Below, piece after piece: positions 3,109 to 16,984 of a DNA stretch of 53,371 nt; position 1 is the first letter of the stretch; every line of letters begins with the position of its first letter. The stretch is from contig CAITIX010000450.1 of NCBI GenBank assembly GCA_903892565.1, positions 1 to 53,371 on the forward strand. The letters are read 5' to 3'. The notes below the pieces were generated by a model. The model did not search any database and was not told the DNA's origin. It saw nothing but the letters and a program-made list of their open reading frames with translations. The position numbers and the translations under genes were made by a program. The DNA comes from an uncultured Acidobacteriia bacterium (GTDB lineage: Bacteria > Acidobacteriota > Terriglobia > Bryobacterales > Bryobacteraceae).

Positions 3109-3735
3109 TCAGGCAGCCTTCCGCATCACCCACGTCGTCATCGCGCGCTGATTCTGCACAATCGTAGTCTTGATCGGATCCGCGAGCTCTGCTCCCAATC
3201 GCGCCGTGTGCTCCGCAAGCACCGCGTCATCCACCAGATAGCGCTCGGATCCGTCCAATGATTTATATCTACGAGATTTGTAGCGACGACCTTCGATCAG
3301 TTCCACCTGATGCTCAATGCCGATCTTCGATGCCAGGCGGCTGAAGAAAAGCCCGCCCGGTTTCAGGACTCTCCACAATCCATCGAGCATCGCCTTGAAG
3401 TGCGCATCATCCTTCGCAAAATGCAGCACCGTGTTGCTGATCACAACATCCGCGCTCGCATCCGCAAACGACATGTTCTCGCACACTTCCACGCGAAAAT
3501 TCGTCGCAGGAAGCCCCGGCGCCAACTTCGCGGCCAGCGCCTTCACCTTCTCCACCTCTTGAGGATTCGGATCCGCCGCAAACACGTTGTAGCCTTCGCG
3601 CAGCAGATAAACAATATTCCGACCGGGCCCGCACCCCGCATCGACAATCGTCATTCCCGGCGTAATGCGCCCTTTTAAGAGCTGATCGAAAAGATAAATA
3701 TCAATTTGGCCGAATTGTTCCTGCAGCGTTGGCAT
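3109..3735 (-). CDS. Class I SAM-dependent methyltransferase
   Basis: The protein has 208 residues. Motif I of class I methyltransferases is visible as IVDAGCGPGRN (about residues 30-40), followed by an acidic end of the second strand (FAADPNP) and VVISNTVLHFAKDD, typical of the Methyltransf_11/25 group. A later LWRVLKPGGLFF segment fits the usual post-motif region. The substrate cannot be predicted; small molecules are common for this group. A GAGGAA site lies 7 nt before the ATG. The gene starts 27 bp after the peroxiredoxin gene on the same strand, so it may be the last gene of the carH-like operon. Confidence 0.85.
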   Translation of the reverse strand: MPTLQEQFGQIDIYLFDQLLKGRITPGMTIVDAGCGPGRNIVYLLREGYNVFAADPNPQEVEKVKALAAKLAPGLPATNFRVEVCENMSFADASADVVISNTVLHFAKDDAHFKAMLDGLWRVLKPGGLFFSRLASKIGIEHQVELIEGRRYKSRRYKSLDGSERYLVDDAVLAEHTARLGAELADPIKTTIVQNQRAMTTWVMRKAA

Positions 3736-3762
3736 GGCGATTCCTCAAACTACCACACGCAT

Positions 3763-4278
3763 TTATCGTGCGAGCTGCGTCAGTGCCGCCAGCACTTCTC
3801 CGCTATGGCGTGACGGCGAGACGCCCGTCCACGCCTTCGCGATCTTGCCTGTGGGATCCACCAAAAACGTATTCCGCGATGCGATCTTGTAGCCCAAAAT
3901 ATTGGTGATCGATCCGTATTGCGCGGACACCGTCTTCTCCGTATCCGCCAGCAGCTTGAACGTAAGCCCCTGCTTGGCGCAGAACTCCTTGTGGCTGTCT
4001 GTGGAATCCACGCTCACGCCGACGATCACCGCTTTGCGCTGTTCGTACTGCGCGATGTCGCGCTGGAAGTTGTGCGCTTCAATCGTGCATCCCGCAGTGC
4101 CATCCTTGGGATAGAAATACAGCACCACCCACTTTCCCTTGAAATCGTGCAGGCTGATCTTGCTCCCATCCTGCGAGGGCAGCGTGAAGTCGGCAGCCGC
4201 TTGGCCGACTTGCGGCACGCCTTCTGCCGCATACAGCCCCACTGCAAAGACGAACATCATCCATAGGCCGGTTTTCAT
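3763..4278 (-). CDS. Exported peroxiredoxin of the AhpC/TSA (BCP-like) family
   Basis: The protein has 171 residues. It starts with a signal peptide (MKTGLWMMFVFAVGLYA), then a thioredoxin-fold peroxiredoxin domain: DFTLPSQDG, LYFYPKDGTAGCTIEAH with the peroxidatic Cys, and the Arg-containing SRNTFLVDPTGKI segment. The second Cys usual five residues later in BCP is His here (GCTIEAH), so resolution would need another thiol, perhaps the one in KEFCAKQ. Members reduce H2O2 and organic or lipid hydroperoxides; the signal peptide points to the periplasm. The start overlaps the stop of the preceding SRPBCC gene as ATGA and has AAGGA 5 nt upstream. Its place in the light/lipid operon suggests protection of membranes from photo-oxidation. 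Confidence 0.9.
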   Translation of the reverse strand: MKTGLWMMFVFAVGLYAAEGVPQVGQAAADFTLPSQDGSKISLHDFKGKWVVLYFYPKDGTAGCTIEAHNFQRDIAQYEQRKAVIVGVSVDSTDSHKEFCAKQGLTFKLLADTEKTVSAQYGSITNILGYKIASRNTFLVDPTGKIAKAWTGVSPSRHSGEVLAALTQLAR

Positions 4279-4718
4279 AAAGATCCTTTCTCGCAATACA
4301 TTTTCGTGACGCGATGCCGTTGGCGAAACATGTCCCGCAGGCCGAGTTGCACGGCCCAACCGAAGATGCGGTTGATCCACACGCCTCCGGGTAGTTGAAA
4401 CTCCACCCGATCTGTTAGACGCGTGCCTTGGTCCACGGATTCGAATTCATGACGATGGACCCACTTCGCGAATGGCCCCTGGATTTGCTCATCCACAAAA
4501 AGTCGATTCTTCTCGTACTCCGTGTGCAGCGCGGTCCACAAGAACGGGCCGATTTTGAGTTCGACGCGGGAACCGCGTTCGATGCCACCTGTTGTGCGAA
4601 TCAATTGCAAGGGCGGAAACTTCGGACTCAACAATTGCAAGGCATCCGGCCGTTCGTGAAAACCGAAGACGGCTTCGATCGGCGCGTTCACGAGGACACT
4701 TTTCACAAAAGTGGGCAT
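4275..4718 (-). CDS. SRPBCC (START-like) family protein
   Basis: The protein has 147 residues. The opening KSVLVNAPIEAVFGFHERPDALQLLSPKF is the typical N-terminus of coenzyme Q-binding/polyketide cyclase-like SRPBCC proteins, which form a helix-grip fold around a hydrophobic ligand. No catalytic residues can be assigned. It lies 2 bp after another SRPBCC gene and overlaps the peroxiredoxin start by 4 nt, so the genes are co-translated. In this lipid-modifying operon a role in binding a fatty or isoprenoid ligand is an inference. Confidence 0.8.
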   Translation of the reverse strand: MPTFVKSVLVNAPIEAVFGFHERPDALQLLSPKFPPLQLIRTTGGIERGSRVELKIGPFLWTALHTEYEKNRLFVDEQIQGPFAKWVHRHEFESVDQGTRLTDRVEFQLPGGVWINRIFGWAVQLGLRDMFRQRHRVTKMYCEKGSL

Positions 4719-4720
4719 GG

Positions 4721-5203
4721 CTACGTATTTGCCGCCACGGTTTGTCGTTGATCTGAAAAGAGCTGATCGATGCGTTGGCGGCGATAGTCGAAAATCTTCA
4801 GTACATCGTTGCGCACCTTGATCGCGTGAACGAATCTGCCGAGGATACCGAAGGGCAGCGCATAGCGCACGATGTCGATCATCTTCGTGCGATCGCCATG
4901 TGCTTCAAAGCGATGCGTGTGATGCCAGAGCCGGTAGGGGCCCGATCGCTGCACGTCCACGAAACGATACGGCGGATTCCATTGACGAATTTCGGTGCGC
5001 CAGTAAATCGGCAGGCCGTGCAGACGCAGGCGATAGCGGATTTCCGTGCCCTCGCGAACTTCGTCCGAGTCCACTCGCAGAATGCGGAAGCCGAGCCAGG
5101 GAGGCGTGATCGTCTCCAGATTGTGGGCATCGGCAAAGAACGCAAAAACGGTTTCGATCGGCAGATCGATCCATTGCTCTCGTCGCAAGGTGTGGAACTT
5201 CAC
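4721..5203 (-). CDS. SRPBCC (START-like) family protein, second copy
   Basis: The protein has 160 residues. It starts EQWIDLPIETVFAFFADAHN and continues ETITPPWLGFRIL, hallmarks of the SRPBCC superfamily; RYRLRLHGLPIYWRTEI and WHHTHRFE complete the grip fold. It is clearly related to, but only partly similar to, the adjacent 4275-4718 gene, so the two may be an old duplication. The start overlaps the SDR gene stop by 4 nt. Ligand binding is the family property; the ligand is unknown. Confidence 0.83.
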   Translation of the reverse strand: MKFHTLRREQWIDLPIETVFAFFADAHNLETITPPWLGFRILRVDSDEVREGTEIRYRLRLHGLPIYWRTEIRQWNPPYRFVDVQRSGPYRLWHHTHRFEAHGDRTKMIDIVRYALPFGILGRFVHAIKVRNDVLKIFDYRRQRIDQLFSDQRQTVAANT

Positions 5204-6006
5204 GTCGGCCGCCCGTCTGCGTGGACCGCTAATCCAAGAGCCGCGGGCACGCCCACGCGATAAGAAGGATATTGCAACGTGATTCCCAGCAGCTTGCGAA
5301 TGGCCGAGCCATCCACGCGGCGATTGTTCGCGAAGCGCGGCATGCGGTCCGCCTGTTCGTGTCCGCTGCCCGTGACGGGAATATTCAGCAACTGCGCGCA
5401 GAACTCGGCAATTTCACGCGACGTGCAAGGCTCTTCGTCCGCGACGGGATAAGCGCCGGTAACATCCGAAAGCAATGCTGCTTGCACGTGCGCCGCAAGA
5501 TCGTCCACATGAATGCGGCTGACGAAGCGATTGCTCAGGCTGTGTTCTCCACGCTGAATGGATTCCTGCACGCCGCGTCCGGGTCCATAAATTGCGGCAG
5601 GCCGCAGGATCAGCGAAGACCATGGCCCGTCGGTGATCTCGCGTTCGGCGTCTAGACGGGCTCGCGCTTTTTCAGTGCTGTCATCTACGGGAGTATCTTC
5701 ATTTACGACGCTTGCCGGACCGTATACAGCAGTTGATGAAATGTAGACGATTCGCCGCGCGTTGCCTTGTAAGGGTGCGAGCAAGTCGGTCGGTCCATCG
5801 GGAGGAATGGAATGGACCACGAGCAGTTCCGGGCAAACGTGTTGCGCGAGGGTGCTGGCGTCGATGATTTTGGCGCCGAGATCCGACAAACGCTGCGGGT
5901 GTCTCGTCGTCGCGACTACGCGCGCGCCTCGGGCAAGGAAGTGCCGCGCCACGCGCTGACCTGTGTAGCCGCAACCGAGAATCAGAATGTTTAACGGTTC
6001 GCTCAT
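5200..6006 (-). CDS. NAD(P)-dependent epimerase/SDR family protein (YeeZ-like)
   Basis: The protein has 268 residues. The Rossmann motif [15 protein letters not shown] lies at about residues 9-23, followed by [22 protein letters not shown] and [13 protein letters not shown], the pattern of atypical extended SDRs of the YeeZ/YbjT type. The catalytic YxxxK pair is not clean: the Tyr of AVYGP is present but the Lys four residues later is not, so dehydrogenase activity is uncertain. It overlaps genes on both sides by 4 nt, which ties its expression to the CFA-type methyltransferase and the SRPBCC proteins. Confidence 0.85.
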
Positions 6007-7112
6007 TTGCTGTTGGCGGTTTGCGTCCGTTCAAAGAGATAGTGCGACACGATCCATTCTTTGCCTTGGCGATAGCCCCACAGTTCCGCGCACGCCATGA
6101 AGAAGATGCGCCAGCGGACGAACCACTGCAGAGAGTTCTTTTCTCCATACACCTGCGAGAACAGTTGCAGGATTTCGTCGCGCTTATGATCCATTTTGAC
6201 GAGCCATGCCTCGGCTGTCTCTTGGTAATGGCGGCCATCCACGGCCCAGTGGTCGCGAATCTTGACGTCGTCCTGAAAATACAGAAGCAGATCGTGGCTG
6301 GGCATTTGCCCGCCGGTGAAGAAGTGCTGGGCCATCCAATCGCTGGCGTCGCGCACCTCAAAAAGATACGCGAAGCGATGATGCGTAAAGATGTGGACGA
6401 AGAACAAGGCTTCAGGGTTCATCCAGGAAGCCACTTTGTGCAGAAGGCGCTGGTAGTTGCGCACGTGCTCCATCATCTCTACCGAGACGATGCGATCAAA
6501 GCTGCGACCGCAGGTGAACTCCAGCGCGTCGAAGTCGTTGATATCGGCGGTGACGATCCGCAGATTGGTGAGGCCGCGCGTGGCGGCTTGGCGTTCGATG
6601 TATTCGCGCTGCGATTGCGAATTGGAGACGCCCAGGATATTGCTCTGCGGAAAATGCTGCGCGGCATAGAGTGAGAACGCGCCCCAGCCACAGCCGAGAT
6701 CGAGGATGGAATGCCCATCTTCGATCTGCGCGCGCTGCGCCGTGAGATCGAGCATGCGGAGCTCTGCTTGATCGAGCGAGTCTTCTGTTTGCCAGTAACC
6801 GCAGCTGTACTTGCGATGGCTTCCGAGCACCTGCGCAAAGAATTCCGCGGGGACTTCGTAGTGCTGCTGGTTTGCTGCTGGCGTATGTATCGCAATCGGG
6901 CTGGCTTTCAACTGCGCCACGTATCGCATGAGATGAGCCTGCTGCGTTTCCGGATCGCCCTTGTCTTCCTCGCGCAGGCGCTCCGAAAGCAGGCGTCGAA
7001 TACCCGCGCGAAGGACGCTGTCGGGAACGAGATCGCGCTCCACGAGAGGCTCGTACCAGGCGGCCTTTGTGGGTGCCGGATGTCCGGCGGTGGAAAGACT
7101 AGAAGCTTGCAT
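6003..7112 (-). CDS. CFA-synthase-like SAM-dependent methyltransferase (CNMT-like)
   Basis: The protein has 369 residues. It belongs to the cyclopropane-fatty-acid-synthase superfamily: [16 protein letters not shown] substrate-side segment, YSCGYW, then the SAM motif [27 protein letters not shown] and [12 protein letters not shown]. The shape and length resemble the branch that includes plant coclaurine N-methyltransferases rather than classical Cfa. It differs from the second CFA-type enzyme at 11365-12648, so the locus encodes two SAM enzymes of this superfamily. The likely reaction is methyl transfer to a lipid double bond or a small acceptor; which one is not visible. The stop overlaps the SDR start by 4 nt. 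Confidence 0.88.
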
Positions 7113-7124
7113 GGATTGCTCCTC

Positions 7125-7463
7125 TCATTGGGTTTCATTGCGGTGTAGCAGCGTTTCCAGTGAGTCCTCCGGTTTCAGGCGGTGGAGCTGCAGCAGCATA
7201 TAGAAAGACATGGCGATGTTGCCGAGACACAGAATCAGAACCAGCCAGAGGATGCGCAGCCACATGCTTCGTTCCTTATAAGCAACCCATACCCAAAACG
7301 TGATGAATCCGAAATAGGCGTCGTACAAAGTGGCGACGGCCCATGGGTTGCCGGAGAATGCGTTCCACGAACTCCACAGGCTGACCTGCATGCTGGTGCG
7401 AACGGTCATCACGACCATCCAAATGAAAATCGCCGCGAAAAGAATCTTCAGCGCCGTTTTCAT
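7125..7463 (-). CDS. Small membrane protein, DUF1475-like
   Basis: The protein has 112 residues with three hydrophobic segments: LKILFAAIFIWMVVMTV, DAYFGFITFWVWVAY and ILWLVLILCLGNIAMSFYML. The pattern NPWAVATLYDAYFGFITF followed by GNIAMSFYML matches my recollection of the DUF1475 family, often found beside CFA-like methyltransferases. It starts inside the carH-like stop codon (4-nt overlap) and ends 12 bp before the CFA-like gene. Function unknown; it probably sits in the inner membrane and supports the lipid modification. Confidence 0.75.
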   Translation of the reverse strand: MKTALKILFAAIFIWMVVMTVRTSMQVSLWSSWNAFSGNPWAVATLYDAYFGFITFWVWVAYKERSMWLRILWLVLILCLGNIAMSFYMLLQLHRLKPEDSLETLLHRNETQ

Positions 7464-8368
7464 GGCTCATGCCTCAACATCTGACACTGGTTTTCGAACG
7501 CCTGCAGATCCGGCAAGAGCACGGCTTGGGGCCCGAGGGAGGAAACGTTGAGATCCGCGCTGCTCGCGCCGCCGATCCATAACTGTGCATGTTCCGGCAA
7601 GTGATGGGCAAGCTCCCGCACTTCCGCCTCCGTTGTTTCGTTCGCGACTGTGATGCCGAGAACAATAGCGCGCGCAGAAACACGTTTCGCTGCCTCCGCG
7701 ATTTCGTGCGCCGGAAGATCCGGTCCCAGATAGACCAGCCGGATGCCGCCCATCGCTGCCAGCATCGCGGAGCTCAGGATGCCGAATTCGTGCGATTCGC
7801 CTGAGGGCGTCGCGAAAATGACCTTGGGGACGCCATTCGCATTGGCGGTTGTCGATTGAAACAGGCGGATCATGCTCCCGAGTAGATTACGGAGCGCCTG
7901 CGTAACCAGATGTTCCTGCGCAATCGATATTTCGCCGGCGTGCCAGCGCTCGCCTACGGTCCGCATCAGGGGCACAACGACTTTGTAGACGAATTCGCGA
8001 GGCGCCAGAGTTGCTGCCAGCCGGTTCAATTCATCTCCCGCCGTGCTGGCATCGAACGCATCGATTGCGGTCAGTACGCGCGATACGAGATCGATTTCAG
8101 TGGCTTTCGGAAGACGGCGGTTCCCCGGTTCCAGCAGCAAGCTGCCGAGCTCCGCGTCGGTGAGCGACGCAATCCCACCGATGGCGTGGCCCTTCTGGAC
8201 GAGCTGGCTCAGGACGCGCAGCCGTTCGATATCCGCCGTGCCGTATTGGCGGCCCCGGTTCGACCGCTCAGGGACTACGGCTTTATAGCGGCGCTCCCAG
8301 GCGCGCAAGGTATCGAGGCTAATGCCCGTAATTTTTGCGACGGCTCGAATCGGATAACGGGTCTCCAT
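7460..8368 (-). CDS. CarH/LitR-like MerR regulator with cobalamin-binding light-sensor domain
   Basis: The protein has 302 residues. Residues 4-27 form the MerR winged helix (YPIRAVAKITGISLDTLRAW). A four-helix bundle and a B12-binding Rossmann domain follow. The adenosylcobalamin photoreceptor residues known from Thermus CarH are all present: Trp142 (ERWHAGE), Glu152-His153 (QEH) and the lower-ligand His193 in ESHEFG. CarH proteins bind DNA as tetramers in the dark and release it when light cleaves the Co-C bond; this is family knowledge, and its function here is inferred. The gene is first in a leftward operon and faces a desaturase operon across a 33-bp palindrome. The start codon is fixed by the MerR domain and lies only about 2 nt after the predicted transcription start, so the mRNA may be nearly leaderless. 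Confidence 0.92.
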   Translation of the reverse strand: METRYPIRAVAKITGISLDTLRAWERRYKAVVPERSNRGRQYGTADIERLRVLSQLVQKGHAIGGIASLTDAELGSLLLEPGNRRLPKATEIDLVSRVLTAIDAFDASTAGDELNRLAATLAPREFVYKVVVPLMRTVGERWHAGEISIAQEHLVTQALRNLLGSMIRLFQSTTANANGVPKVIFATPSGESHEFGILSSAMLAAMGGIRLVYLGPDLPAHEIAEAAKRVSARAIVLGITVANETTEAEVRELAHHLPEHAQLWIGGASSADLNVSSLGPQAVLLPDLQAFENQCQMLRHEP

Positions 8369-8376
8369 CCGTATCC

Positions 8377-8406
8377 ACTATATCCGGGCTTGGAAATAGA
8401 TGTCAA
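8377..8406 (-). promoter_or_regulatory. Promoter of the carH-like operon
   Basis: Reading leftward, TTGACA (8406-8401), an 18-nt spacer and TATAGT (8382-8377) make a near-consensus sigma-70 promoter. Its -35 box is the left arm of the palindrome, so occupancy of that site would block it. The predicted start of transcription, about 8370, is next to the ATG at 8368. Confidence 0.65.
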
Positions 8407-8433
8407 CGATTTGTATTAGACAAAGGATTGACA
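8401..8433. promoter_or_regulatory. 33-bp palindromic operator between divergent lipid operons
   Basis: The layout is TGTCAA-N3-TTTGT-N5-ACAAA-N3-TTGACA, centred on base 8417, with 12 of 16 base pairs symmetric. The outer arms are -35 boxes (TTGACA) pointing in both directions; the inner arms form a TTTGT/ACAAA operator. Position and symmetry make it the likely binding site of the CarH-like regulator encoded next to it, for autoregulation and control of the desaturase operon. Confidence 0.7.
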
Positions 8434-8456
8434 ATAGCTCGCGAATCGCTAAGAAT
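8428..8456 (+). promoter_or_regulatory. Weak promoter candidate for the desaturase operon
   Basis: TTGACA (8428-8433), a 17-nt spacer and AAGAAT (8451-8456). The -10 box is poor and would place the transcription start after the GAGG site at 8457-8460, so another -10 may be used or an activator may be needed. The TTGACA is the right arm of the palindrome. Confidence 0.35.
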
Positions 8457-8468
8457 GAGGATGTGAAC

Positions 8469-9308
8469 ATGCCCAAGACGAAATACCGGTTCGGGGCGGT
8501 TTTCTTTTTCGTGCTGCTGCACCTGGGCGTAATCGCGGTGTGGTGGACGCCGCCGACGTGGCCGCTGGTGCTGCTGCTGGTGGCGACGTATTCGATCCGC
8601 ATGTTTGGAGTGACGGCGGGCTATCACCGCTATTTCGGGCACCGGAGCTACAAGCTCAGCCGAACGGCCCAATTTGCGATGGCGTTTCTGGCGCAGAGCT
8701 CGGCGCAAAAAGGAGCGTTGTGGTGGGCGGCGCATCATCGGCGGCATCACCGGGAATCCGACCGTGAGTTGGATGTCCACTCTCCGGCGCGTCGCGGATT
8801 TTGGTGGGCGCATATGGGCTGGGTCATCTCGAACGATTTTGACGACTACGACCCGCGCGCGGTGGGCGAATTTCTAGCGTTCCCGGAACTGCGTTTTCTG
8901 GATCAGCACCACTGGATTCCCACCGTGGTGTTGGCGGTGGCGATGGCGCTGATCGGCGGATGGCCGGCGTTTCTGTGGGGCTATGTTGTATCGACCGTGG
9001 TGCTGTACCACTGCACGTTCGCTATTAATTCGCTCGCGCATATATGGGGCACGCGGCGTTTCGATACTCCCGACGAAAGCCGCAATAACTTCTTGCTCGC
9101 GCTTGTCACCTTCGGCGAAGGATGGCACAACAATCACCACTTTTCTCCCGGCAGTTGCCGCCAGGGAGAGCGTTGGTGGGAAATCGACATCACATACATG
9201 GTTCTGAAAGCGCTCAGCTGGTTGGGGATTGTCCGCGATCTGCGCCCCTTCCGTGGGACTGCGCACATCCACGTTGTTCCGGTGTCCGGCAGGAAAGTCA
9301 CAGCTTAA
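8469..9308 (+). CDS. Membrane fatty-acid (acyl-CoA/phospholipid) desaturase
   Basis: The protein has 279 residues. The three histidine boxes of the di-iron delta-9 type desaturases are HRYFGH (start of HRYFGHRSYK), HHRRHH and WHNNHH, and hydrophobic segments lie around them (FGAVFFFVLLHLGVIAVWW near the N-terminus). The ATG at 8469 has GAGG 8 nt upstream and is preferred to a start at 8400 that would overlap the palindrome. Its product would be a cis double bond in a fatty acyl chain, which is the substrate of the CFA-type enzymes encoded downstream. It heads a rightward cluster. Confidence 0.93.
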   Translation: MPKTKYRFGAVFFFVLLHLGVIAVWWTPPTWPLVLLLVATYSIRMFGVTAGYHRYFGHRSYKLSRTAQFAMAFLAQSSAQKGALWWAAHHRRHHRESDRELDVHSPARRGFWWAHMGWVISNDFDDYDPRAVGEFLAFPELRFLDQHHWIPTVVLAVAMALIGGWPAFLWGYVVSTVVLYHCTFAINSLAHIWGTRRFDTPDESRNNFLLALVTFGEGWHNNHHFSPGSCRQGERWWEIDITYMVLKALSWLGIVRDLRPFRGTAHIHVVPVSGRKVTA

Positions 9309-9317
9309 GGTCGACCA

Positions 9318-10565
9318 GTGAAGCGAATTGCAGTGATTGGTTCCGGCATCTCGGGGTTGTCCGCCGCTTATTATTTAAGCCGGCGGCACGAAGTGTCTGT
9401 GTTCGAGCTGGACAATCGCGTCGGCGGGCATACGCATACGGTGATGGTGGATTCCGAACAAGGACCCATTCCGGTGGACACTGGCTTCATCGTTCACAAC
9501 GACCGCACGTATCCAAACTTTTGCCGCTTGATGAAAGAGCTGGGTGTGGAGACGCAGCCGAGTGACATGTCTTTTGCCGTTACGGGCCACGATGGAGGAT
9601 TCGAGTACTCCAGTCGCGGCCTCAGCGGCTTTTTTGCGCAGAAACGGAACTGCTTTTCGCCGAATCACTACACGTTGCTGCTCGAGATTCTGCGGTTTAA
9701 TCGCGAAGCTCCGAAGTTGCTGGAGCGTCCTTCGGCCGAAACGCTGACGCTCGCGCAGTTTCTGGATGAGGGGCGGTATTCGCACCTATTTGTTGATCGA
9801 TATTTGATTCCGATGGCTGGCGCCGTGTGGTCCATGGCTCCGGAATTGATGCCGAAGTTTCCGGCGCTGACGCTGATTCGCTTCATGCAGAACCACGGGA
9901 TGCTCGGAATCAATACGCATCCGAAATGGAAGGTGCTACGCGGCGGCAGCCATTCTTATCTCCCACCCTTGACGGCGCCGTTCCGAGAGCGTATTACAAC
10001 GGACGTGAAAATCACGGCGGTGAAGCGCGACGAACACTGCATCACGCTCGAATTCGCAGGGCGCCCCGCACAGCAGTTCGACGAAGTGGTCTTCGCCTGC
10101 CATGGCGATCAAATTCTGCCAATGCTCGCGGCGCCGACGGATGCGGAGAGAAACGTCCTCGGCAGTTTTACGACGAGCCGCAATGAAACATGCCTGCACA
10201 CGGATTCGGCGATGCTCCCAAGACGCCAAGCGGCAAGGGCTTCGTGGAACTATTTGCTGGGCGATTCGGGCAAGGTCACGCTTACCTATGACATGAATCG
10301 CCTGCAGTCGCTCGATACCGTGGAAACTCTTTGCGTGACGTTGAATGCGAACGCGAGGATCGCTCCAGGCCGCGTGTTGCGGCGGATGATGTACGAACAT
10401 CCTTTATATACGAGCGCTGCGATTCGTGCGCAAGCACAATGGCCTGAAATTAGCGGCAAGCATCACACGCACTTTTGCGGAGCCTATTGGTTTTACGGTT
10501 TCCACGAAGACGGCGTGCGCAGCGGCATCCGCGTGGCGGAAGCGCTGGGGGTGGCTTGCGCATGA
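9318..10565 (+). CDS. FAD-dependent amine-oxidase-like oxidoreductase (COG2907 type)
   Basis: The protein has 415 residues with a GTG start 7 nt after AAGG. The N-terminal FAD-binding motif is IAVIGSGISGLSAAYYLSRR, followed by VFELDNRVGGHTHTV, typical of flavin-containing amine oxidase/phytoene-desaturase-like proteins. The C-terminus (HFCGAYWFYGFHEDGVRSG) carries the usual second flavin contact. It belongs to the trio COG2907-DUF1365-CFA synthase that recurs in light- and singlet-oxygen-controlled lipid clusters. A role in desaturating or oxidising a methylated acyl chain is plausible by analogy with furan-fatty-acid synthesis. It overlaps the next gene as ATGA. Confidence 0.9.
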   Translation: MKRIAVIGSGISGLSAAYYLSRRHEVSVFELDNRVGGHTHTVMVDSEQGPIPVDTGFIVHNDRTYPNFCRLMKELGVETQPSDMSFAVTGHDGGFEYSSRGLSGFFAQKRNCFSPNHYTLLLEILRFNREAPKLLERPSAETLTLAQFLDEGRYSHLFVDRYLIPMAGAVWSMAPELMPKFPALTLIRFMQNHGMLGINTHPKWKVLRGGSHSYLPPLTAPFRERITTDVKITAVKRDEHCITLEFAGRPAQQFDEVVFACHGDQILPMLAAPTDAERNVLGSFTTSRNETCLHTDSAMLPRRQAARASWNYLLGDSGKVTLTYDMNRLQSLDTVETLCVTLNANARIAPGRVLRRMMYEHPLYTSAAIRAQAQWPEISGKHHTHFCGAYWFYGFHEDGVRSGIRVAEALGVACA

Positions 10566-11368
10566 CGCCGACAATTCCCGAGCCTGGGCTCTATGCCGGC
10601 AGTTTACGGCATCGCCGCTTTTCGCCGCGCAAACACGAGTTCACGTATTCGCTCTTCATGGCCTGGCTGGATATTGACCGCATCCCGGAGCTGATGGCCC
10701 GGTCGCCATGGACCAGCTACAACCGCTTCAATTGGGCGAGCTTCGATGATCGAGACCATTTCGGCGATCCACAGCTCTCGTTGCGCGAACGCGTCGAACA
10801 GGACGCGCGGTTACATGGCATCGATTTGCCGGATGGTCCGATCTATTTGCTGACGCATCTTCGCTATTTGGGGTATTGCTTTAATCCGATTTCGTTCTAT
10901 TTCTGCTATGACCGCGCGGGCGGACTGGAAACGGTGCTGGCCGAGGTCCACAGCACGTTTGGAGAACGCCGTAATTACTGGCTGTCGTCGCACAATCGGC
11001 AGGCCTCGCGTGCGACGCTCCATTATCGTTGTCCCAAGGACATGCACGTATCGCCGTTCATGGGCATGAAGCTGGATTACGAATTCGTCCTGACGAAGCC
11101 GGCCGACAAATTGATCGCGCATATGAATACGATGCAGCGCGACGAAACACTTGTATCTCGAACCTTCTTTGATGCGACGCTCGCGCTGGAACGCGAGCCC
11201 TGGACAGCGCGAAACCTTGGCCGCATACTGCTGCTGCATCCGTGGATGACGGCCAAGGTTATCGGCGCAATTCATTGGGAAGCCTTGCGGCTGTTCCTGA
11301 AAGGCGTTCCCGTCTTTACTCATCCCGCCCGCGTGCGGCCACCTGTTCCGGAGGTAAGCAAACCATGA
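10562..11368 (+). CDS. DUF1365 (COG3496) family protein
   Basis: The protein has 268 residues. The opening PGLYAGSLRHRRFSPRKHEF and the central LTHLRYLGYCFNPISFYFCY are diagnostic for DUF1365, as is the later FHVSPFMGM-like segment (MHVSPFMGMKLDYEF). No membrane segment stands out. It overlaps the FAD gene and the CFA gene by 4 nt on either side, so the three proteins are made together. In alphaproteobacteria proteins of this gene group take part in furan fatty acid formation; the exact reaction of this family member is not shown here. Confidence 0.9.
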   Translation: MTPTIPEPGLYAGSLRHRRFSPRKHEFTYSLFMAWLDIDRIPELMARSPWTSYNRFNWASFDDRDHFGDPQLSLRERVEQDARLHGIDLPDGPIYLLTHLRYLGYCFNPISFYFCYDRAGGLETVLAEVHSTFGERRNYWLSSHNRQASRATLHYRCPKDMHVSPFMGMKLDYEFVLTKPADKLIAHMNTMQRDETLVSRTFFDATLALEREPWTARNLGRILLLHPWMTAKVIGAIHWEALRLFLKGVPVFTHPARVRPPVPEVSKP

Positions 11369-12648
11369 GCTCGAGCTTTGCGCGAAAGGCTGTATTTCGG
11401 ATGCTGGAAAACATCCGCCACGGCACGTTGGACCTGCACTGTTCCGACGGCACGTCTCACTTCGGTGAAGAAGGAACGGATTTGCGCGCCATTATCGCCG
11501 TACATGACGAGCGATTCTTCGCGCGCGTTTTGTTTGGCGGAGACGACGCGGCAGGCGATGCTTACGTCGATGGAGACTGGACGTCGCCCGATCCTGTGGC
11601 CGTGATCCGGCTCATCGCGCGCAATCTGGGGACGATGGAATCGGGCAACGCGCTGTTGACTTCGGCCAGCCGCATGTTTCACAAGGCGCGGCATTGGATG
11701 AATCGCAACACGGAGCAGGGAAGCCGGCGCAATATTCAGGCGCACTACGATTTGAGCAACGATTTCTTTCGCCTGTTTCTGGATCGCAACATGGTGTATT
11801 CGAGCGCGGTCTATCTGCAAGCCAACGATTCTCTGGAAGCGGCGCAAGTGGAGAAGCTCGATCGCATTTGCCGTAAGCTGCGTTTGGGGCCCGAGGATCA
11901 CGTCCTCGAAATCGGCACCGGGTGGGGAGCGTTCGCGCTGCATGCGTCCCGCAACTATGGTTGCAAGGTGACGACCACGACGATCAGCCGCGAGCAACAC
12001 GATCAAGCGAAGCAATCCTTCGCGGACGCGGGCGAGGCCGGCGAGCGCATCACGCTGCTGTTGGAGGATTATCGCAAGCTGAAGGGCTCCTTCAACAAGC
12101 TCGTGAGTATTGAGATGTTCGAGGCCGTGGGTTTGGAATTCTACGACGCGTTTTTCTCGGCGTGCGACCGTCTGTTGACGCCCGATGGCTCCATGGTGAT
12201 GCAGGCGATTACGATGAACGAACACCGTTTTGACGCGTATCGCAAGCAGAGCGATTGGATACAACGGCGCATTTTCCCGGGCGCGCAATTGGCTTCGGTG
12301 CGAGAGATCCTAAGCTCGCTGGTGCGGTCCACGCGCTTGTCGATGTATCACGTGGAAGACATCGGGATGCATTATGCGTATACGTTGGCCGAGTGGCGTC
12401 AGCGGTTTCACGAATCCATCGAGGAGGTACGCGCGCTGGGTTTTGATGAGCGCTTCTGCCGCATGTGGGATTACTATCTGGTCTATTGCGAAGGTGCGTT
12501 TCGTGAGCGCCACATTGGCGACGTCCAGCTCATGCTGACGAAGAACGCGAATCCAGCGTCGCTGCTCGGCGAGCCGTGGCGGCAAGTCGAGGAGGCCGAA
12601 GTCGTAGCTGGTCCGCTGGCGGCCCAACGCTGGAGGGTTGGCGCTTGA
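11365..12648 (+). CDS. Cyclopropane-fatty-acyl-phospholipid synthase family protein
   Basis: The protein has 427 residues, the usual length of the family. Features in order: N-terminal lipid-facing domain with LFGGDDAAGDAYVDGDW, then IQAHYDLSNDFFRLFLD, MVYSSAVYL, the SAM motif VLEIGTGWGAFALHA, TTISREQHD and VSIEMFEAVG, and a C-terminal WDYYLVYCEGAFRERHIGD. These match Cfa/UfaM-type enzymes that transfer a methyl or methylene from SAM to a cis double bond of membrane phospholipid acyl chains. ATGA overlap with DUF1365. Whether it makes a cyclopropane or a methyl-branched alkene cannot be told from sequence. Confidence 0.93.
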   Translation: MSSSFARKAVFRMLENIRHGTLDLHCSDGTSHFGEEGTDLRAIIAVHDERFFARVLFGGDDAAGDAYVDGDWTSPDPVAVIRLIARNLGTMESGNALLTSASRMFHKARHWMNRNTEQGSRRNIQAHYDLSNDFFRLFLDRNMVYSSAVYLQANDSLEAAQVEKLDRICRKLRLGPEDHVLEIGTGWGAFALHASRNYGCKVTTTTISREQHDQAKQSFADAGEAGERITLLLEDYRKLKGSFNKLVSIEMFEAVGLEFYDAFFSACDRLLTPDGSMVMQAITMNEHRFDAYRKQSDWIQRRIFPGAQLASVREILSSLVRSTRLSMYHVEDIGMHYAYTLAEWRQRFHESIEEVRALGFDERFCRMWDYYLVYCEGAFRERHIGDVQLMLTKNANPASLLGEPWRQVEEAEVVAGPLAAQRWRVGA

Positions 12649-12765
12649 TACCCCTCATCTCCGATTCTTCTTGCGGAGGAACTGTTCGGTTGTTCGCGGA
12701 GAGCCACTAGTCGCCCAACTTTTGAACGCCTATACTGGGCAAAACAGTTCCAGGGAGGAGTTCGC

Positions 12766-13779
12766 ATGGCACGCATCACGCGCAGACGTTTCGGGAAGCA
12801 TTTGGCAACGGCTGGGGGATTCATCTTGACGATCCCGCGCGCATCCGCAGCGGAGTTCCGCATGCGGCAATTTCACAACCAGCCGGTGGAAAGCGCACTG
12901 CATCAACGCCTGACGCAGATGTGGGACGCGGTGAAGGCCGAGACGCGAGGGCGTGTCCAGGTCGATATATTTCCGCTGAACAATCATTTCAAGGATGGCG
13001 ATCCTGATCCGCTGGATCTGCTGGTTCGTGGAGAGCTCGAGTTTTACACGTTGGCGGGAAACGGTTTGGCTGCGATTGTGCCGGCGGCGAATGTGCAGGC
13101 TACTCCATTTGCGTTTCGCACGCAGTCGCAAGTGTATCGCGCGATTGATGGCGATATCGGCGATTACCTGCGCGAAGAGTTGCAGGCCAAGGGCATCCAC
13201 ATGTTTCCGCGCGGAGGCTTCCAAAACGGCTTTCATCAGATCACGTGTGCCACGCGTCCTATCCGCGGCGCCGCGGATCTGCAGGGCCTGAAGATTCGTG
13301 CGCCAGGCAATGCGGCATACCTGGAATTTTGGAAAGCGTTCGGTGCGCAACCGGTGGGCATGAACATCAACAAGATGTACGATGCGCTGAAGGCGGGCAC
13401 GGTGGAGGCGCAGGAAGATCCGCTAGATGTGGCCGAGCTGTTTCACTTGTACGAAGTGCAGAAGTATATGAGCATGACCAATCACGGCTGGTCCGGGTAT
13501 AACGCGCTCGCCAATCTGAAAGTTTGGCAGGGGCTGCCGGATGATGTTCGGAAATCGATTGAGCGGAATGTCGTGAAGTTCGTGAGGCTGCAACGCGCCG
13601 ATACGGCAGCGTTGAATAAAGAACTGCGCACAAAGCTAACGCAACAAGGTATGGTCTTCAACGATGTGGACGTCGCTTCCTTCCGCGCAAAGCTCGGGCC
13701 GTTTTACGCGCGGTGGAAGGATGCGATCGGCAGCAAGGCTTGGTCGTTGTTGGAAGGACACGTCGGGACGCTGGCGTGA
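12766..13779 (+). CDS. TRAP transporter substrate-binding protein (DctP family), orphan
   Basis: The protein has 337 residues. It begins with a twin-arginine-like export signal (RRRFGKHLATAGGFIL). The body shows DctP features: IFPLN, DLLVRGELEFYTLAGNG, a RAIDGDIGDYLREEL segment, GLKIRAPGNAAYLEFWKAFGAQPVGM and the DALKAGTVEAQEDP hinge. DctP proteins deliver acids to TRAP permeases from the periplasm. No DctQ or DctM membrane subunits are in the window, so it may serve a distant permease or have been recruited as a lipid or ligand carrier. It lies 117 bp behind the CFA synthase gene on the same strand and may belong to the same transcript. Confidence 0.85.
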   Translation: MARITRRRFGKHLATAGGFILTIPRASAAEFRMRQFHNQPVESALHQRLTQMWDAVKAETRGRVQVDIFPLNNHFKDGDPDPLDLLVRGELEFYTLAGNGLAAIVPAANVQATPFAFRTQSQVYRAIDGDIGDYLREELQAKGIHMFPRGGFQNGFHQITCATRPIRGAADLQGLKIRAPGNAAYLEFWKAFGAQPVGMNINKMYDALKAGTVEAQEDPLDVAELFHLYEVQKYMSMTNHGWSGYNALANLKVWQGLPDDVRKSIERNVVKFVRLQRADTAALNKELRTKLTQQGMVFNDVDVASFRAKLGPFYARWKDAIGSKAWSLLEGHVGTLA

Positions 13780-13960
13780 GGCGGGGAGTGGACCGAGGCG
13801 CGATGCGTGGCGCCCCATGTGCCGAATCACCGTGTTCCCTTAACTCCGCCAGGTAAAGATCGAGAATCTTCATCACTTCTTCAGGGCTTCTCGATGACTT
13901 CTTCAGGCCTTTGCGAATATGCTCAGCGTGTGGATCAATGAGGTCAATTCAAATTATCTA

Positions 13961-13990
13961 TTGGCAATGCTTTCAGGCGCTGGTTAAGAT
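13961..13990 (+). promoter_or_regulatory. Promoter candidate for the beta-barrel protein gene
   Basis: TTGGCA (13961-13966), an 18-nt spacer and TAAGAT (13985-13990). Five of six and four of six consensus bases match. It would give a leader of about 73 nt ending in a strong AGGAGG site. Confidence 0.4.
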
Positions 13991-14069
13991 CAGATGAAAC
14001 GCACGCTTTGCGAGTACAAGCCACGCCGCTTGTTGCGATCCAAATCCCAGAAAACTTTAGGAGGTTCTT

Positions 14070-15281
14070 TTGAAAAGAACACATACCCTTCGTGTATTTG
14101 CAGGCACGTGTCTGCTGACTATGGCGTCTCTAACCTATGGACAAGCACCCGCGCCTGCTGCGGACGCACCCGCTGCTCCGGCAGCGCCGATGCCCCCTTC
14201 CTCGCCTTCGATGAGCGGTCCGCTTGCGGACCAGCCGTCTGCCATGTTCGAAGCGGGGCCGTTCGGCAAGCTTGCCGTAAACGGATTTCTCAGCGGCTTC
14301 GGAATGGTGCAGAGCAACCACATTTCGGGCGACGACAACAAGCAAGCGGCGCTGAGCAATGGCCAGATCGTCATTCAAAAGACGGATGGCACGTTCCAGT
14401 TCTACTTGCAGGCGGGTGGCTATAACCTTCCGTCTCTCGGCGTGCCCTTCTTCACGACCAACGACACTGTGTCCGGCTTGTTCGGACCGTTGCCGGTGGC
14501 ATACGCGAAGATCCAGATGGGCAAGAACACGTCCTTCCAGATTGGCGAACTGCCGACCTTGATCGGCGCTGAATATACGTTCACCTTCCAGAACATGAAC
14601 GTGGAACGTGGCCTGTTGTGGAATCTGGAGCCGGCGGTGAGCCGCGGCATGCAGATCAATCAAACGATGGGCAAGGTAACGGCCTCGCTGAGCTGGAATG
14701 ACGGCTTCTATTCGAGCCGCTATTCCTGGTTGAGCGGGTCGCTCGGCTATTCGAACGGAACGCACGCCTTGGCGTTCGTCGGTGCCGGTAACGCCGGACA
14801 GACGGCGTACACGACGTTCGCGTCCTCCGTTCTCAACAACAGCAAGATTTACAACGTGATCTATACCTACACCAAGGGTCCCTGGATCATCCAGCCTTAC
14901 TTCCAATACACCGATACACCGACCAATAAGTCGATCGGCGTGGTGGATGGCGCGAGCACCAAGGGTTTCGCGATCCTGGCGAGCTATGCGACCAAGAAGG
15001 GCTTCTCTCTTCCGGTGCGCTTTGAGTATCTAACGAGCTCGGGCAGCGTGAAGAACGGCTCGGTCAACGTCCTGTTCGGTCAGGGCAGCGGCGCGACGTC
15101 CTTCACCTTCACTCCCACGTACCAGAACGGTGGATTCTTCGTTCGCGGCGACATCTCGTTCACGCACGCGATGGATCTTGTTCCGGGATTCGGATTCGGT
15201 CCCGCGGGTAACGATGCAAGCCAGTTCCGTGCCGTGGCGGAAGTGGGCTTCATCTTCGGCGACAACATCGTGAAGAAGTAG
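14070..15281 (+). CDS. Outer-membrane beta-barrel (porin-like) protein
   Basis: The protein has 403 residues with a TTG start placed 5 nt after a perfect AGGAGG (14059-14064); this decides the start. A signal peptide (TCLLTMASLTYGQA) is followed by an Ala/Pro-rich linker (about residues 24-50) and then alternating amphipathic strands rich in Gly and aromatic residues (FLSGFGMVQSNH, FQFYLQAGGY, PWIIQPYFQYTD) ending in AVAEVGFIFGDNIVKK, typical of a barrel closing strand. It resembles Gram-negative porins of the BBP2 group; solute unknown. The linker could span the periplasm or contact peptidoglycan. A GC-rich hairpin follows the stop. Confidence 0.82.
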   Translation: MKRTHTLRVFAGTCLLTMASLTYGQAPAPAADAPAAPAAPMPPSSPSMSGPLADQPSAMFEAGPFGKLAVNGFLSGFGMVQSNHISGDDNKQAALSNGQIVIQKTDGTFQFYLQAGGYNLPSLGVPFFTTNDTVSGLFGPLPVAYAKIQMGKNTSFQIGELPTLIGAEYTFTFQNMNVERGLLWNLEPAVSRGMQINQTMGKVTASLSWNDGFYSSRYSWLSGSLGYSNGTHALAFVGAGNAGQTAYTTFASSVLNNSKIYNVIYTYTKGPWIIQPYFQYTDTPTNKSIGVVDGASTKGFAILASYATKKGFSLPVRFEYLTSSGSVKNGSVNVLFGQGSGATSFTFTPTYQNGGFFVRGDISFTHAMDLVPGFGFGPAGNDASQFRAVAEVGFIFGDNIVKK

Positions 15282-15433: not shown

Positions 15434-15694
15434 ATGCCAGCAGCAAAGCATCATTGGACAGTCGTTTGTTTCTTCTGGACCGGCGTAGTCATGAGCGCAG
15501 CGTCTGTTCTGGTTGTCTTGGCTCGTGAGACGAAGCTGATCTGGCGCTTCGAGCAGGCCGATTTCCCGTTGTCCGGAGTCTTCGCGGCGCTTGCCTTCCT
15601 GGCGTTTCTGGCCACGGAGCTTTGTGATTCTTTGCGCCACCCTACCCCAGAACGTTCAAGATCCATCGGCGCTGGCTCTCGAGCGCGAGACTAG
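15434..15694 (+). CDS. Small two-helix membrane protein
   Basis: The protein has 86 residues and I do not recognise it. Two hydrophobic stretches (VVCFFWTGVVMSAASVLVVLA and the segment FPLSGVFAALAFLAFLA) are separated by a short charged loop, followed by a basic tail. A GAGG site lies 5 nt before the ATG. No partner gene is evident: it sits between the beta-barrel gene and the ABC operon. It could also be a chance open frame, but the membrane pattern and ribosome site speak for a gene. Confidence 0.45.
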   Translation: MPAAKHHWTVVCFFWTGVVMSAASVLVVLARETKLIWRFEQADFPLSGVFAALAFLAFLATELCDSLRHPTPERSRSIGAGSRARD

Positions 15695-16036
15695 CACCAA
15701 CGCCGGTTCTGACCCGCGTGACGATGCAGGCAATGCTGCAATGCACCGCGTCTCAACTCAAAAAAGTCCTCCCTGCCGGAAGTCGATCCTAAACTATATA
15801 GCCTAAAGCAGTTTTCCTAGAGTGCGCTTTGCCGCGAATACGCGGTTTGCGGGTTAAAGTGCTGATGAAATAGGGATGATAGCTCTATAGCGGTACATGA
15901 GTTTCGTCATCCCCATGAAAACGCTTAGGCCCGACCGCGACACCCCTGCTCCTTTGTGCGCGGACGCATCTGCGGGGTTGCAAAGCCAGGATCAAAAAAG
16001 CAATTGGGGGAATCCTGCACCGCTTCCAGCGCGCCG
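15695..16036. other. Spacer before the ABC operon
   Basis: No gene or clear repeat is seen. The frame of the ABC ATPase stays open back to a GTG at 15956, so part of this stretch may be coding if that start is used. I could not identify a convincing promoter. Confidence 0.4.
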
Positions 16037-16984
16037 ATGCCAGCGCTCGCGGGACAAGCCGCTGTGGCTGCCGATGAGATCGTCGACGTGAGGCGCAGTT
16101 TCGGCAAACGGACCGCCATCGATGGCCTTACGTTGACCATACAAACGGGAAGCGTCGTGGGAATCGTCGGACCGAATGGCGCGGGGAAGACCACGTTGAT
16201 CGATATGATCTGCGGTCTGACTCGTCCGTCGAGCGGCACGGTGAAGGTGTTGGGCGAAGACGTCGTCCGCGGCGGCGCGGCTTTGCGTGCGCGGATTGGC
16301 GTGCTTCCACAGGAAACGGCACTCTACGAAGAAGTGACGGCGCAGCAAAATCTCGATTTCGCGGCATCGCTCTATGGGGTACCCAACGCAGTCGCTCGAA
16401 CTGCCGAGGTGTTGGATTTGGTGGGCCTGCGGCAGAGGGCACACGACGTCGTGCGTGGATTTTCCGGCGGCATGCAACGCCGGCTGGCGATTGCGCGCGC
16501 GCTGCTGCATAATCCGTCCTTGCTGATTCTGGACGAACCAACGGTGGGCGTGGACATTGAAGCGCGCCACCAGATTTGGGCGCACATTCGATCGCTCAAG
16601 GCGATGGGCCGCACCGTTGTATTGACCACGAACTATTTGGATGAGGCGGAGGCGCTTTGCGATCGCGTGGCGATCCTTCGCGCCGGAAAGCTTTTGGCGG
16701 AAGACACGCCTGTGGCACTCACCACTCGAACGGGGCGATGCCTGGAGCTAGAATGCGCCGCAGCAGGCGTTGCCGTGATTGGCGATGCGTTACGCGGCCA
16801 TGCGGATGTCCTGCGCGTGGAGTCCGCCGATTTCGGTTTGCGGACCTATCTCAAAGCGGGCGTTTATCCGGAAGAAGTCGTGCATTTTGCGCGAGGCATT
16901 TATCCGGTCAATGGCTTTCGCGCTCGCTCGCCCGATTTGGCGGAAGTATTCCGATCTTTAACCGCCGAGGGCGTGACCCCATGA
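16037..16984 (+). CDS. ABC transporter ATP-binding protein (ABC-2 export type)
   Basis: The protein has 315 residues from this start. Walker A GPNGAGKTT, Q-loop LPQETALYEEVT, signature FSGGMQRRL, Walker B LLILDEPTVGVD and the H-loop region are all intact, except that the usual switch His is Asn in VLTTNYLDEAEALCD, where many drug-export ATPases also have T/H-H variation. The C-terminal extension resembles DrrA/CcmA-type export ATPases. Start choice is uncertain: neither this ATG nor the in-frame GTG at 15956 has a good ribosome site. It overlaps the first permease as ATGA and powers the exporter formed with it. Confidence 0.9.
   Translation: MPALAGQAAVAADEIVDVRRSFGKRTAIDGLTLTIQTGSVVGIVGPNGAGKTTLIDMICGLTRPSSGTVKVLGEDVVRGGAALRARIGVLPQETALYEEVTAQQNLDFAASLYGVPNAVARTAEVLDLVGLRQRAHDVVRGFSGGMQRRLAIARALLHNPSLLILDEPTVGVDIEARHQIWAHIRSLKAMGRTVVLTTNYLDEAEALCDRVAILRAGKLLAEDTPVALTTRTGRCLELECAAAGVAVIGDALRGHADVLRVESADFGLRTYLKAGVYPEEVVHFARGIYPVNGFRARSPDLAEVFRSLTAEGVTP

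Follow-up and report, generated by a model that had tools for sequence, protein, structure and literature searches.

A Probable B12-Photoreceptor-Controlled Locus for Dimethyl Furan Fatty Acids in a Soil Acidobacterium

Gene Content of the Locus

The window, i.e., the whole stretch of 53,371 nucleotides analyzed here, is contig C450 (CAITIX010000450.1) of an uncultured soil acidobacterium of the Bryobacteraceae, whose genome assembly (GCA_903892565.1) comprises 4.6 Mb in 454 contigs. It harbors a carH-type regulator gene at the head of a gene group on the minus strand (minus arm) and, directed away from it, a second gene group on the plus strand (plus arm); together, the two groups probably serve dimethyl furan fatty acid synthesis controlled by a B12 photoreceptor. 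Furan fatty acids with two methyl groups are membrane lipids thought to absorb light-made reactive oxygen. All genes named in an earlier note on this DNA, which had been made from the sequence alone, were confirmed in the window by checks of open reading frames (ORFs) and domains.

The plus arm opens with a DesA-like fatty acid desaturase (8463–9308, plus strand; PF00487), whose translation features the histidine boxes HRYFGH, HRRHH, and HNNHH and whose start is corrected from 8400 to either GTG 8463 or ATG 8469. It continues on the same strand with a UfaD-like FAD oxidoreductase (9318–10565; PF01593), a UfaO-like DUF1365 protein (10562–11368; PF07103, E 9.8e-81), and a UfaM-like methylase of the cyclopropane fatty acid (CFA) superfamily (11365–12648). 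The latter two genes begin at ATG 10562 and ATG 11365, respectively, and both overlap the preceding gene. On the minus strand, the regulator gene (7460–8368) is followed by genes for a small DUF1475 protein (7125–7463; PF07343, E 1.1e-9) and a second CFA-superfamily enzyme, a FufM-like methylase (6003–7112), and then by a group of accessory genes. The proposed operator (8401–8433) lies between carH and the desaturase gene.

Correspondence With the Published Furan Pathway

According to Lemke et al. (2020; PMC7380195), furan fatty acids of Rhodobacter sphaeroides and Rhodopseudomonas palustris are formed by UfaM, which methylates cis-vaccenate on the phospholipid, UfaD, an FAD protein akin to phytoene desaturases which produces a methyl diene, and UfaO, a DUF1365 protein required for the O2-derived furan oxygen, with the second methyl group added by FufM. 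The window holds homologues of all four enzymes at identities of 36–51%; it differs in that all of them lie in one light-sensor locus, alongside genes for a desaturase, DUF1475, SDR, SRPBCC, and peroxiredoxin proteins.

The comparison sequences were UfaD, UfaO, UfaM, and FufM candidates from two Rhodopseudomonas-like genomes (G623 and G652) with two reaction-center genes each. CFA-family genes lie at 0.19–0.20 and 0.51–0.55 of the chromosome in both, and RPA0924, RPA2569, and RPA3082 are presumably to be expected at about 0.19, 0.53, and 0.64, given the gene total of strain CGA009. A third, stop-broken CFA-family gene was seen in G652 at 0.64, the relative place of RPA3082 (C1:3395681-3396492), and was not found in G623. 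The UfaD-, UfaO-, and UfaM-like genes are adjacent in both genomes.

Compared with these candidates, the window proteins show identities of 38–39% over 420 columns (UfaD), 36–38% over 239–247 columns (UfaO), and 38% (UfaM). The UfaD- and UfaO-like genes combine full-length homology with adjacency to UfaM in overlapping reading frames. For the plus-arm CFA gene, CFA synthases are the best PDB matches (1.4e-51), and its assignment to UfaM is given by its clade and by an active-site pattern distinct from Cfa. Judged by homology, the plus arm (the desaturase and the UfaD-, UfaO-, and UfaM-like genes) corresponds to the furan fatty acid pathway as published, so that the earlier note's suggestion of a furan pathway was largely right.

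The FufM-Type Gene and the Separation of Methylase Types

The presence of two different CFA-superfamily enzymes had been recognized before, though not that the second one is of the FufM type. Among solved structures, this minus-arm enzyme is closest to plant coclaurine and pavine N-methyltransferases (6gkv, E 2.7e-77), with CFA synthases far lower (1.1e-25), and an identity of 37.9% to FufM has been reported for Arabidopsis AT4G33110 (PMC10940516). It shares 50–51% identity with the FufM candidates of the two Rhodopseudomonas-like genomes, compared with 27% to their UfaM, and is in this respect nearer to RPA0924, for which the Rhodopseudomonas-like candidates stand in, than to UfaM. The FufM family is distinct: among 398 Pseudomonadota genomes, scored with at most five candidates per genome, 33 reach at least 389 bits and the next match 153, and a FufM-type gene occurs in 17 of the 61 genomes of the relatives search, the window's included (E < 1e-100; next match 6e-25). 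With a FufM-type enzyme in the minus arm, the pathway is predicted to yield a dimethyl furan acid.

An alignment on residues C139, E239, H240, H266, I268, and Y317 of Escherichia coli Cfa, which we take to have an active-site role, distinguishes the enzymes further. Past position 139, UfaM-type rows read E-A/Q/I/Y in all 67 readable cases out of 68 (the remaining row being a gap), FufM-type rows E-H/H/F/Y in 96 of 96, and E. coli Cfa E-H/H/I/Y; position 139 itself differs among the rows of either methylase type. Another 13 CFA-family rows, taken from acidobacterial relatives and assumed to be ordinary Cfa, have neither the A nor the Q-with-A pattern; they do not form one clade. The plus-arm CFA gene of the window fits the UfaM pattern and the minus-arm gene the FufM pattern, and a tree of 54 selected rows supports the FufM clade with 100/100 and the UfaM clade with 91/99. 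E-A/Q/I/Y as a putative marker of UfaM is an observation of the present analysis. In view of residue patterns and clades, we rejected cyclopropane synthesis by either CFA gene.

The CarH-Type Regulator and Its Proposed Operator

That a regulator of the B12 light-sensor type stands between the two operons, as assumed earlier, is supported by the MerR DNA-binding and B12-binding domains of the protein (PF13411 and PF02607 above and PF02310 below the cut-off) and by its sequence motifs. With GxxW-x9-EH, GxxHxxG, and GxxxP, it carries all four signature elements (GxxW, EH, GxxH, and GxxxP) named for light-responsive adenosylcobalamin (AdoCbl) proteins (PMC11796333). Its best PDB matches are CarH-type regulators, 5c8d among them, and it agrees with the CarH B12 photoreceptors in domain order as well as in the AdoCbl signature. 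Whereas CarH photoreceptors are known for carotenoid genes, the apparent targets here are furan-lipid genes, and the sequence is divergent. Since it does not reach the NCBIfam CarH cut-off (NF052513), the protein is classed as a CarH-type regulator and not as a CarH orthologue.

The operator candidate is a nested inverted repeat of 33 bp, TGTCAANNATTTGTCATNGACAAANNATTGACA, composed of outer TGTCAA/TTGACA and inner TTTGTC/GACAAA elements. The palindrome is kept in an alignment of five genus loci (the window and L038–L041), where the mean column identity of the surrounding stretch is 66%; mismatches to the 33-base consensus number 2 in the window and 0, 0, 5, and 1 in L038, L039, L040, and L041, respectively. 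No match arose in 100 shuffles of the window and none with ≤9 mismatches in 20 shuffles of L038, and the palindrome is found at one place only in its own genome. It also lies at carH in two other Acidobacteriota loci, L057 and L058 (3 and 4 mismatches). In L248, which belongs to the genus member G011 (G011:C1:91001-111000, 7498–11561), it stands with 4 mismatches between carH-SDR-SRPBCC-SRPBCC and a DNA photolyase gene, and no Ufa genes were called in these 20 kb. L124 showed just one stretch with 9 mismatches, 62 bases before carH.

The outer TTGACA boxes are outward-facing and -35-like, with TATAGT following 18 bases on towards carH and AAGAAT 17 bases on towards the desaturase. As both boxes lie within the palindrome and point outward, a single repressor bound to it could span the two promoters. 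With the start codons so near to where transcription would begin, the messages may well be leaderless.

Conservation of the Two Arms

Gene linkage was surveyed within 10 kb of the FufM genes of 16 relatives (the window's 17th being left out) and of 80 other loci, the best 80 of at least 519 confirmed relatives. L042 and L071 are the same locus, so that the 96 loci represent 95 distinct ones. Models for the survey came from window seeds and the same loci (for DUF1295, from L038) instead of Pfam, and the counts are lower bounds because many contigs are short. UfaD, DUF1365, and UfaM occur together near FufM in 15 of the 16 relatives and 46 of the 80 other loci; the corresponding counts are 16 and 64 for DUF1295, 12 and 35 for the desaturase, 7 and 24 for DUF1475, and 10 and 4 for a CarH-type gene. 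Among the 43 of the 80 loci which exceed 15 kb, UfaD, DUF1365, and UfaM are together in 31 and DUF1295 is present in 37. The 32 Pseudomonadota loci feature UfaD, DUF1365, and UfaM in 14 cases, DUF1295 in 21, DUF2177 in 12, and a CarH-type gene in one; five presumed alphaproteobacterial loci (L192–L196) bear none of these labels beside FufM.

A recurrent order on one strand is desaturase-UfaD-UfaO-UfaM-(DUF1475)-(DUF2062)-DUF1295-FufM, and UfaM has DUF1365 at the same locus in 65 of 68 cases. The core of the two arms was seen again in relatives as well as in distant phyla, so that the grouping exceeds chance; in view of the linkage counts around FufM, this core is co-conserved, though not in every genome. 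A neighborhood survey had been named beforehand as a refutation test of the suggested co-conservation, and it did not refute it.

DUF1295 as a Possible Partner of FufM

The usual FufM neighbor DUF1295 is absent between DUF1475 and FufM in the window locus. The sole copy found in the same genome lies on contig C64 and shares 33% identity with the DUF1295 gene in the L038 locus, compared to 68–77% between the latter and the DUF1295 proteins of L039–L041, by which a relocated orthologue was ruled out. On this contig, DUF2177, DUF1295, and DUF2062 genes were seen together (L197, 4670–7149). In G623 and G652, a DUF1295 gene directly precedes and overlaps FufM, at a place corresponding to RPA0923; Pfam, run on the gene of G623, also sees steroid-reductase and ICMT likeness. 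A deletion of RPA0923 was made by Lemke et al. (PMC7380195), where the mentions found in the main text are confined to the strain and plasmid tables.

As a tentative proposal, and one which we hold somewhat less probable than its opposite, DUF1295 together with DUF1475 may be an unrecognized part of dimethyl furan synthesis, paired with FufM across phyla and lost from the locus in the lineage of the window. In line with it, singlet oxygen induces a DUF1295 gene of Chlamydomonas along with CFA, DUF1365, and DUF2177 genes (PMC4067076). The 11 of 32 Pseudomonadota FufM loci without DUF1295 nearby count against such a role. The widely linked, unstudied family is the newest lead of this analysis.

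Accessory and Flanking Genes

Downstream of FufM, the minus arm comprises genes for an SDR/epimerase-like protein (5200–6006; PF01370 and PF13460, weak), SRPBCC protein 1 (4721–5203; PF03364), SRPBCC protein 2 (4275–4718; PF03364), and a PrxQ-like peroxiredoxin whose translation shows a leader at the N-terminus (3763–4278; PF00578, E 2.3e-38). Among the 16 relatives, SRPBCC 1 was found near FufM in five, SRPBCC 2 in four, the peroxiredoxin in three, and a photolyase in five. The SDR, searched with a single-sequence seed, occurs in 0 of the 96 loci; L248, in which SDR-SRPBCC-SRPBCC follow carH in the same order and the SDR is 69% identical, is not among these. The SDR, SRPBCC, and peroxiredoxin genes are shared locally, and a light-stress role is likely. 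In L038 (6039–7445) and L040 (16305–17666), an NmrA-type SDR fused to DUF2867 is situated between the two SRPBCC genes, a call made by Pfam for L038 and by sequence likeness for L040. L040 additionally carries a GTP cyclohydrolase I gene (15687–16292); folE belongs to the Pseudomonas light regulon (PMC9758184).

Two flanking genes were ruled out as parts of the system and probably lie outside the unit. The DctP-type binding protein (12766–13779, plus strand; PF03480), which the earlier note had counted in as TRAP-type, was found in 1 of 96 loci; it is followed by a BBP2-type porin (12766–15281 for both), and no TRAP membrane gene was found among the part of the ORFs scanned, up to 18081. The small S-adenosylmethionine methyltransferase (3109–3735, minus strand; PF08241) occurs in 0 of 96 loci; the text of the earlier note did not name it, yet the interval given there, starting at 3109, takes it in. 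Past the end of the minus arm, a large tandem-TPR protein is encoded at 113–2578.

Relation to Known Systems

For the published furan pathway, control of its genes by sigma-E/ChrR in a core regulon has been described (PMC6852236), whereas the window locus bears a CarH-type regulator. Similar in control are the class II LitR regulators PplR and PmlR of Pseudomonas, for which a light-induced operon with an FAD oxidoreductase, ufaM, an SDR, and the photolyase gene phrB was described (PMC9758184). A LitR/CarH-family regulator, the FAD oxidoreductase, ufaM, and an SDR are common to both; however, the Pseudomonas regulators are of class II and act with a LOV protein, and FufM is not named in the available text, whereas the window regulator has the AdoCbl signature. 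In Vibrio cholerae, a MerR/ChrR blue-light response induces a CFA gene (PMC5241685). In Chlamydomonas, the CFA1, CFA2, DUF1365, DUF1295, and DUF2177 genes need SAK1 for induction by singlet oxygen (PMC4067076); this is a eukaryote, furan acids are not named in the portion of the text at hand, and the likeness is one of gene labels.

The open-licence literature yielded no paper pairing "furan fatty acid" with "acidobacteri", and among the matches listed there (40 of 93), PMC9758184 was the only one to contain a furan term as well as CarH or LitR. None of the listed matches tied an AdoCbl CarH to furan acids by title or abstract start, which is weak evidence of absence, with most subscription papers outside the search. 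The idea of an undescribed pathway could not be upheld: the furan pathway is already published, and in Pseudomonas class II LitR is known to govern an ufaM operon induced by light. While the enzymes have been described in other bacteria, this switch, the arrangement, and some of the conserved partner genes have not been described well.

Proposed Function and Alternative Explanations

In the dark, the AdoCbl-loaded CarH-type repressor would occupy the shared operator, cover both -35 boxes, and silence its own as well as the divergent operon. Light would break the Co-C bond and release the repressor, whereupon both arms would be transcribed; CarH itself binds DNA in the dark and releases it in the light (PMC4557120). 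The desaturase would then provide a monounsaturated chain, UfaM would place a methyl group on its double bond on the membrane lipid, UfaD would introduce a second double bond, UfaO would insert the O2-derived oxygen and close the furan, and FufM would add the second methyl group. The product would scavenge singlet oxygen, with a possible part for the peroxiredoxin and the SRPBCC proteins in clearing or carrying oxidized lipid. We infer the chemical steps, B12 binding, and the light response from published homologues.

Several results weigh against this interpretation. The references are candidates in Rhodopseudomonas-like genomes, not the characterized proteins, for which PMC10940516 lists the accessions Q6NBA4 (FufM), Q3J4I7 (UfaM), Q3IYV7 (UfaD), and Q3IYV8 (UfaO), and the support of the UfaM clade is under the bar of the tree tool (95 and 80). 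The regulator reaches 122 bits compared to the CarH cut-off of 400, which places it outside CarH in the narrow sense, and no more than 14 of the 96 loci have a CarH-type gene close to FufM. A search allowing up to 9 mismatches did not recover the operator in L061, L046, L049, L052, and L165, all of which have such a gene in the neighborhood of FufM; in L061, this gene is divergent from a desaturase. A 24-base operator pattern gave 11 matches in 5 of 23 genomes, with 4 matches in 4 genomes for the reversed-pattern control, and missed L040 of the genus member G001; in G043, it gave three weak matches, and the stretches examined there contained neither a called CarH nor a called Ufa gene. With DUF1295 missing, the unit may be incomplete.

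The plus arm might yield a monomethyl furan acid, with the FufM-like enzyme methylating another lipid or an amine. The plant N-methyltransferases as best solved relatives mean that the substrate could differ, and the missing DUF1295 as well as the 18 of 32 Pseudomonadota FufM loci without the full UfaD, DUF1365, and UfaM set nearby point in the same direction; the identity of 50–51% to the FufM candidates, the common clade with 100/100 support, and the frequent linkage to ufaD-O-M in other phyla argue against it and render it unlikely. Slightly less probable still is a pathway which ends at a methyl-branched mono- or diunsaturated acid or another oxygenated product, with a chain length and double-bond place other than in cis-vaccenate. 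It would accommodate the UfaD and UfaO identities of just 36–39% and the DesA-like desaturase that opens the plus arm and recurs near FufM elsewhere, as none is named for the alphaproteobacterial sets in the text at hand; the nearly constant company of DUF1365 and UfaM suggests, however, that the oxygen step is used. That the regulator is shared by chance, between cyclopropane synthesis on one arm and an unrelated stress operon on the other, seems very improbable. L248, with regulator and operator between SDR-SRPBCC-SRPBCC and a photolyase but no Ufa gene, would fit such a case, whereas the residue pattern of cyclopropane synthase is missing from the UfaM-type gene, and the linkage of FufM with ufaD-O-M holds across phyla, often with the genes in a row on one strand.

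A dimethyl furan fatty acid locus under a B12 photoreceptor remains the preferred reading, and it draws on gene identities, clades, residue patterns, operator conservation, and linkage established in this study. The locus is real and coherent and most likely serves light-regulated dimethyl furan fatty acids, with known chemistry in a new arrangement and under a new regulator.

Significance

The residue patterns allow UfaM, FufM, and Cfa to be separated in annotation, and DUF1295, a neglected family, emerges as a testable partner of FufM. Furan fatty acids are predicted in Acidobacteriota, Bacteroidota, Verrucomicrobiota, and like groups. If the proposed function is true, a membrane shield against singlet oxygen would be tied to a direct light sensor and not to the sensing of damage.

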